From positions 1-64,000 of the forward strand of contig JACZTB010000003.1 of assembly GCA_022573895.1 (NCBI GenBank): a DNA stretch of 64,000 nt, given 5' to 3'. The stretch comes from Nitrososphaerota archaeon. GTDB lineage: Archaea > Thermoproteota > Nitrososphaeria > Nitrososphaerales > Nitrosopumilaceae. Every line of letters begins with the position of its first letter. Within the stretch, counting starts at the first letter, position 1. The translations under genes were made by a program, and so were the position numbers. Shown one piece after another: positions 9,629 to 10,711 of this stretch. The notes beneath the pieces were generated by a model. It did no database searches. It was not told the origin of the DNA and saw nothing but the letters and a program-made list of their open reading frames with translations.

Positions 9629-9949
9629 ATGTTAAGTAAAAAAGGAAAACATGCCTCAGCCACAGAAAACAGGAGATTTGTGTGGGCTGAAATCATTTGG
9701 CCGTTAATTTTAGAAATTAATAATGTCACATTTTCATTAAAACAATTTCAAAATAAACGTGATCAAGTGCGTAAAGAAAAAAACATAGCAATTACAATTC
9801 CATCTAGGGGATTGGTTTCATTAATGAGAAAAGGAATTCTCTTAAAGGATGAAGACACTTATTCAATTCATTTTAAATTAATTCCATACATGAGATTAAG
9901 AGCAGAGTGTAATTATGCAACTGCTATTCATGAAGTTATTATCAGGTAA
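9629..9949 (+). CDS. Small winged-helix-like protein, unknown
   Basis: 106 residues beginning MLSKKGKHASATENRRFVW. The C-terminal half (SLKQFQNKRDQVRKE ... PSRGLVSLMRKGILLKDEDTYSIHF) alternates helices with a short beta hairpin, as in winged-helix DNA-binding proteins, and the whole is basic. I do not recognise a named family, and a regulatory role is inference. It shares the short intergenic region with the divergent Cys-cluster gene and is followed by the tRNA-Gln gene on the same strand. Confidence 0.5.
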   Translation: MLSKKGKHASATENRRFVWAEIIWPLILEINNVTFSLKQFQNKRDQVRKEKNIAITIPSRGLVSLMRKGILLKDEDTYSIHFKLIPYMRLRAECNYATAIHEVIIR

Positions 9950-9994
9950 CTTCACCAAATGATTATATTCTAAAACACCAGAGTTTGTTTTGGT

Positions 9995-10099
9995 AGCCCG
10001 ATAGTCTAGCGGTCAAATAATATTTTAGATCAAGGATTCTGCCCTCTGGATCTCATGAGTGGATAGGCGGAGACGGCAGTTCGAATCTGCCTCGGGCTA
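9995..10099 (+). tRNA. tRNA-Gln (CUG) with two predicted introns
   Basis: Mature parts fold as a normal 73-nt tRNA: acceptor AGCCCGA/TCGGGCT with A-U first pair (typical of archaeal tRNA-Gln), D stem GTCT/GGAT, anticodon stem CTGCC/GGCGG with loop CTCTGGA (anticodon CTG at 10046-10048), T stem GGCAG/CTGCC with loop TTCGAAT, discriminator A. To reach this fold two insertions must be removed: 17 nt in the D loop (about 10017-10033, flanked by TCAA repeats) and 15 nt after the anticodon loop (about 10051-10065, near the canonical 37/38 site; boundary may slip by one base). The 3' end is 12 bases from the end of rps7 on the other strand. Confidence 0.85.
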
Positions 10100-10111: not shown

Positions 10112-10711
10112 CTATCTTGATGCTTGTGCTATGCGTTCTAACTCATTCTTTTTCTTTACTGAAGGAGCGTTGGAGTCATTGTTTGCTGCAAGTATGAGTT
10201 GTTCAGCCATGTGTTCTTCAATTGGTTTTGGATTGGAAAATGTTGCCTCTTTAATGGCATCTGAGATGAATTTTAGTGCCAAGTCAACTCGTCTAATTGG
10301 GGCAACATCAACTGACACATGGTATACTGTACCACCATAAACAATTCTAGTAGTATCTTCGTTTGGAGCAGAAAACTCTACGGCTCTAACTAAAATTTCA
10401 ACTGGATTTTTTCCAGTTTTTAGTGAAATAATTTCAAATGCAGTTTTTACAGTATTGAGAACTTTGGTCTTTTTTCCAGTCATTCTTCCTGTGTTCTTTG
10501 CATATTTCTTTCCAAAGTGCATTGTCTTGTTCATCAATCGTTCAACAAGGTTAACATCAGCTTTGTTGAATCTCTTGAGTGCTGAACGACCATAGGTGTA
10601 TGGTAAAATTTGTTTTCTCAATGAGATTGCGGTCTTTAATCCAGGATCTTTAATCTCAATATCTGACAAATCCCATTTTCTAAATAATAACAAATTCTTT
10701 GTTTCTGCCAT
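10112..10711 (-). CDS. rps7: Ribosomal protein uS7
   Basis: 199 residues, the archaeal length. The basic loop RRVDLALKFISDAIKEA and the segment KGKKYAKNTGRMTGKKTKVLN-like region (here HFGKKYAKNTGRM) match the 16S rRNA 3'-domain-binding protein S7. It is the last gene of the rpl30e-nusA-rps12-rps7 block, starting three bases after the rps12 stop. In most archaea EF-1A and rps10 follow; here the strand ends and a convergent tRNA-Gln follows instead. Confidence 0.97.
   Translation of the reverse strand: MAETKNLLLFRKWDLSDIEIKDPGLKTAISLRKQILPYTYGRSALKRFNKADVNLVERLMNKTMHFGKKYAKNTGRMTGKKTKVLNTVKTAFEIISLKTGKNPVEILVRAVEFSAPNEDTTRIVYGGTVYHVSVDVAPIRRVDLALKFISDAIKEATFSNPKPIEEHMAEQLILAANNDSNAPSVKKKNELERIAQASR

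Follow-up and report, generated by a model that had tools for sequence, protein, structure and literature searches.

The window analyzed here, a stretch of 64,000 nucleotides, carries at positions 9995-10099 of the plus strand a tRNA-Gln(CUG) gene of 105 nt, from which a tRNA of 73 nt is obtained when two segments are removed, one of 17 nt within the D loop (10017-10033) and one of 15 nt following the anticodon (10050-10064). The three exons of 22, 16 and 35 nt, which add up to exactly 73 nt, provide the 5' acceptor strand, the 5' strand of the D stem and the D loop (exon 1, nt 1-21, 9995-10016; near-identical among orthologues of the same genus), the anticodon CTG at 10046-10048 (exon 2, nt 22-37, 10034-10049), and the 3' strand of the anticodon stem, the variable loop, the T arm, the 3' acceptor strand and the discriminator A (exon 3, nt 38-73, 10065-10099). 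The acceptor stem consists of 7 bp (AGCCCGA/TCGGGCT) and the T arm reads GGCAG-TTCGAAT-CTGCC. A putative promoter, the TATA-like element TTATAT (9963-9968, plus strand), is situated approximately 30 nt upstream of the gene, and the majority of orthologues in the genus conserve the motif AAATGA(A/T)TATATTC within an otherwise diverging leader. On the downstream side the gene is followed by the convergent rps7 (10112-10711, minus strand; PF00177, E 7e-37), which adjoins tRNA-Gln(CUG) in most of the orthologous loci tested and anchors their orthology. The region upstream of the tRNA also contains an open reading frame of 106 aa (9629-9949, plus strand) without a Pfam match, and in genomes of family f8 a protein end similar to that of this reading frame precedes tRNA-Gln(CUG). 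The window belongs to contig C66 of a 1.8-Mb assembly in 92 contigs, with a completeness of 97.7% and a contamination of 2.5%. Orthologous contigs carry named GTDB records of Nitrosopumilus, Nitrosarchaeum, Nitrosotenuis and other Nitrosopumilaceae, and the host is accordingly an ammonia-oxidising thaumarchaeon.

The recognition of the gene by ARAGORN depended on the removal of the D-loop insertion. When the spliced 73-mer was submitted to ARAGORN, a standard tRNA-Gln(ctg) was returned, and removal of the D-loop insert alone yielded Gln(ctg) with a 15-nt intron, reported as i(39,15). The unspliced 105-mer gave no gene with default settings and a Gly(gcc) with the intron option. A search of the host genome with the Rfam model RF00005 scored the unspliced gene at 38.7 bits, against a cut-off of 29, and an Rfam scan of the window at the gathering threshold did not detect it. 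The first-pass annotation had proposed a 73-nt fold attained only after excision of both segments and a gene that simple scanners would miss or mis-call; the former was borne out by these results, and the latter holds for ARAGORN and for the default Rfam scan. The same annotation had regarded a second intact CUG gene as a sign of a decayed copy at this locus. No such gene was found among the 42 tRNA matches of the 97.7%-complete assembly, in which the only other Gln gene seen has the anticodon TTG (contig C32). For genome annotation this means that plain scanners overlook the sole CUG tRNA found in the genome. Four further tRNA genes with insertions were missed by ARAGORN in the same genome and were read by us as Met(CAT), Tyr(GTA), Leu(CAA) and Ser(GGA) (L132, L134, L135 and L137, respectively).

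The D-loop insertion is embedded in a bulge-helix-bulge (BHB) structure of the type found at archaeal tRNA introns. Its central helix is formed by the exon strand GGTC (10011-10014) and positions 10028-10031, with pairing at all four positions, and is bordered by two 3-nt bulges, AAA at 10015-10017 and AAG at 10032-10034; an inner helix connects 10018-10020 with 10025-10027, while the D stem, with three unpaired nucleotides on its 5' side, serves as the outer helix. With cuts placed two nucleotides into each bulge (marked ^), the motif reads GGTC-AA^A-TAA...TTA-GATC-AA^G and releases the 17-nt segment ATAATATTTTAGATCAA. Five cut registers in the D loop would lead to an identical mature tRNA, since the ends of the insert repeat, and the register at position 21/22 is the one favored by the BHB geometry. 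In a minimum free energy fold of the precursor both extended arms and the same D-loop central helix were recovered. However, the folding z-scores of single sequences ranged from -0.95 to -1.42 and were not significantly better than those of shuffled sequences. Since such scores are weak when taken alone, the evidence for an intron is comparative. The order yielded 46 distinct D-loop introns, and in every one of them the four intron bases preceding the 3' bulge paired with the exon sequence GGYC at all four positions; although kinship among relatives inflates counts of this kind, the agreement is complete. Shuffling of the letters would be expected to give full pairing in 0.54 of the 46 introns, and when introns were swapped between exons full pairing was obtained in 38 on average and in 43 at most. 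Within the central helix an exon C was found solely with an intron G, whereas an exon T occurred with an intron A or G; the inner helix changes as pairs (TA to CG, AT to GC), and the bulges of the 46 distinct relatives conform to AAN and ANG.

The second insertion occupies the canonical position and comprises 15 nt, located at 10050-10064 in the 37/38 register or at 10051-10065 in the 38/39 register, both of which lead to the same mature tRNA. In the window three of four central pairs are formed in the former register and all four in the latter; across 70 sequences at least three central pairs are formed at 37/38 in all of them, while at 38/39 the number drops to two in some. In most orthologues of the genus this insertion measures 15 or 18 nt, and we interpret it as an intron of the canonical type whose motif is relaxed. 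The BHB structure, which the first-pass annotation had suggested checking, is complete at the D loop, where the four pairs are formed and conserved, and imperfect at the canonical site.

In the three nearest relatives by RpoB (G172, G163 and G199) the same gene is present and precisely the 17 nt are missing. Apart from this gap G172 and G163 have the same tRNA gene as the window, down to the rare anticodon-intron variant CATGAG, and the identity of their flanks to those of the window lies mostly at 81-97% within 900 nt; G199 shows a few additional substitutions in the tRNA. Throughout the genus, orthologues with the same exons either lack the insert and measure 88 nt or contain inserts of 14-22 nt at exactly this point of the D loop, and because empty and filled sites coincide at one exact point the insert cannot be attributed to chance. 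The lack of the insertion in the nearest kin, together with an assembly divided into 92 contigs, would also be compatible with a pseudogene in decay or with a faulty assembly, the 17 nt then being a harmful insertion and another gene serving the Gln codons. Yet the exons are intact, the CUG gene is the only one found in the assembly, and independent genomes carry inserts at the same point in which the BHB pairing is kept, so that we consider such an explanation very improbable. We likewise give very little credence to the retention of the insertion in the mature tRNA as an enlarged D arm: the precursor does fold well, the insert then forming an additional hairpin, but the length and the loop of the insert vary freely while the positions of the splice motif alone are kept, and many relatives with identical exons have no insert at all. 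Empty-site orthologues, conserved BHB pairing at the D loop, a unique, intact CUG gene and a two-subunit splicing endonuclease of the broad-specificity type instead support the initial proposal of a D-loop intron alongside a second intron.

The distribution of the D-loop intron was surveyed with a covariance model built for the gene, which was applied to 250 genomes at the family level, 121 at the order level and 150 at the class level, a selection of the matches being inspected individually. Most genera of the family and the majority of the sampled families in the order possess the 21/22 intron, indicating that it is old, and several families at the class level lack it. Within the genus of the window, among the matches listed, it was present in 17 of the 89 genomes with a match and missing in the remaining 72. 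The survey also provided a number of separate observations. In family f19 it is tRNA-Gln(UUG) that was noted to have an insertion at this point of the D loop (L286, L288), whereas tRNA-Gln(CUG) genes of families f8 (L255-L263) and f20 (L295-L296) have a further intron at approximately 10/11, with the motif AGCCCGGTCG^A...GCCGAA^TCTAG and the central helix CGGT/GCCG, so that the genes of f8 contain three introns. Extra insertions in tRNA-Gln(CUG) following GTCTAG in L247 and following AGCCCCGTC in L248 and L249 are probably further introns. In Nitrosopumilus sp. H13 (L121) the 5' acceptor strand of tRNA-Gln(CUG) is replaced by unrelated sequence, possibly as a result of recombination or an assembly break. 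A 1.04-Mb contig labelled as the alphaproteobacterium 'Candidatus Rhodobacter lobularis' (L118, NZ_LFTY01000001.1) carries a thaumarchaeal tRNA-Gln together with rps7, and judging by this content the assembly is mislabelled or chimeric.

The patchy presence of the intron within the genus raises the question of gain versus loss. A first tree of the rps7-rps12 flank was poorly resolved and included six loci with unrelated downstream DNA, and RpoB was therefore chosen. In the RpoB tree of 69 taxa the intron-bearing genomes form four groups within intron-less ones; the fewest changes amount to five (e.g., one loss and four gains), while a history of losses only requires 10-15 events, depending on the treatment of weak branches. 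These numbers are uncertain, since they derive from a single gene and a tree built on codon positions 1 and 2 forces just two changes at its strongly supported branches, but a change between presence and absence has likely happened more than once. The four groups and the lower number of changes would favor, over unbroken inheritance, a history in which the D-loop intron was lost at the base of the genus and returned in the lineage of the window by way of reverse splicing, transposition or a very short gene conversion. On the other hand, the intron resides at the same position with a near-identical sequence, and the flanks show no import tract. Taking these points together with the few changes forced by the codon tree, we regard a regain in this lineage as possible, though unlikely, and the broader scenario of a single loss in the genus followed by several regains at the exact spot as somewhat more doubtful still. 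Import through a long recombined tract from another intron-bearing species was rejected as a candidate: the flanks follow the intron-less kin close to the tRNA, which makes a tract extending much beyond approximately 150 nt on either side unlikely. If repeated regain were true, site-specific gain of tRNA introns would be ongoing in mesophilic ammonia-oxidising archaea and could be observed by comparing close relatives. Since close relatives of one genus differ exactly by one 17-nt intron in an otherwise identical gene, the locus offers a direct means of studying gain and loss of archaeal tRNA introns and of asking whether such introns carry a cost.

Removal of an intron from the D loop calls for an endonuclease acting at non-canonical sites, and the subunits of this enzyme, to which the first-pass annotation had drawn attention, are both encoded in the host genome as the catalytic and the beta-like component of a heteromeric (alpha-beta)2-type splicing endonuclease. 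The catalytic subunit of 178 aa matches the Sulfolobus and Aeropyrum enzymes over its full length, retains the catalytic Tyr, His and Lys residues, and carries a lysine that aligns with K44 in the Crenarchaea-specific loop of A. pernix; the beta-like subunit of 199 aa contains both Pfam domains, with the catalytic His replaced. This loop and this subunit type have been linked to a broad substrate specificity (PMC6379350), and cutting at non-canonical sites is predicted accordingly from the sequence of the two proteins. In comparison with the (alpha-beta)2 endonuclease of Aeropyrum pernix (PDB 3P1Z, 3AJV), the catalytic subunit is a full-length homologue sharing the K44-equivalent lysine, whereas the structural subunit has diverged; moreover, the broad specificity is published for the A. 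pernix enzyme and predicted for the thaumarchaeal one. The catalytic domain of the endonuclease occurs a third time in the assembly (L126, G000:C82:455-706), devoid of the N-terminal half and adjoining a second copy of the intact endonuclease gene's neighbor, and this copy is a truncated paralogue or strain contamination.

In summary, the locus very probably represents a functional tRNA-Gln(CUG) gene of Nitrosopumilaceae with two BHB introns whose splicing is predicted, the D-loop intron being old and patchy among its kin. The gene would be transcribed from the TATA-like element, and the precursor is predicted to fold into a cloverleaf in which both the D arm and the anticodon arm are extended. 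The (alpha-beta)2 endonuclease would then cut two nucleotides into each 3-nt bulge, so that 17 nt are freed at 21/22 and 15 nt at 37/38, and the exons would be joined by a tRNA ligase to the 73-nt tRNA-Gln(CUG). Ligases of the RtcB type are known in archaea, and such an enzyme would be the candidate for the joining of the exons.

Non-canonical and multiple tRNA introns have been well described in Crenarchaeota and Thaumarchaeota (PMC8450103, PMC4090602), with insertion points at many positions of archaeal tRNAs (PMC4090602), and tRNAscan-SE 2.0 uses BHB models trained on thaumarchaeal introns, 107 non-canonical introns having been counted in Thaumarchaeota (PMC8450103). The novelty of the gene was overrated at first, as introns of this kind are known in Thaumarchaeota and are modelled by current archaeal tRNA finders. 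In our literature search, which left GtRNAdb and the supplements of papers aside, we found no paper that names the D-loop intron of tRNA-Gln(CUG) at 21/22, nor any report of its class-wide distribution or of its patchy but exact presence within one genus. Like the non-canonical BHB introns in these studies, the D-loop intron is short, lies outside 37/38, occurs together with a canonical intron and belongs to a lineage with an (alpha-beta)2 enzyme, although the positions given there include 20/21, 22/23, 25/26 and others and 21/22 is not spelled out (PMC8450103, PMC4090602). In Caldiarchaeum subterraneum a tRNA with a CUG anticodon (printed as Glu) is among the multi-intron genes and D-arm introns were noted (PMC3293823). 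The gene of the window resembles it as a multi-intron CUG tRNA, whereas that study deals with tRNA-Thr and a mobile-element model, and next to the gene analyzed here we noticed no mobile element of this type. Thus, the D-loop intron of tRNA-Gln(CUG) is one more non-canonical archaeal tRNA intron, of a kind already described in Thaumarchaeota.
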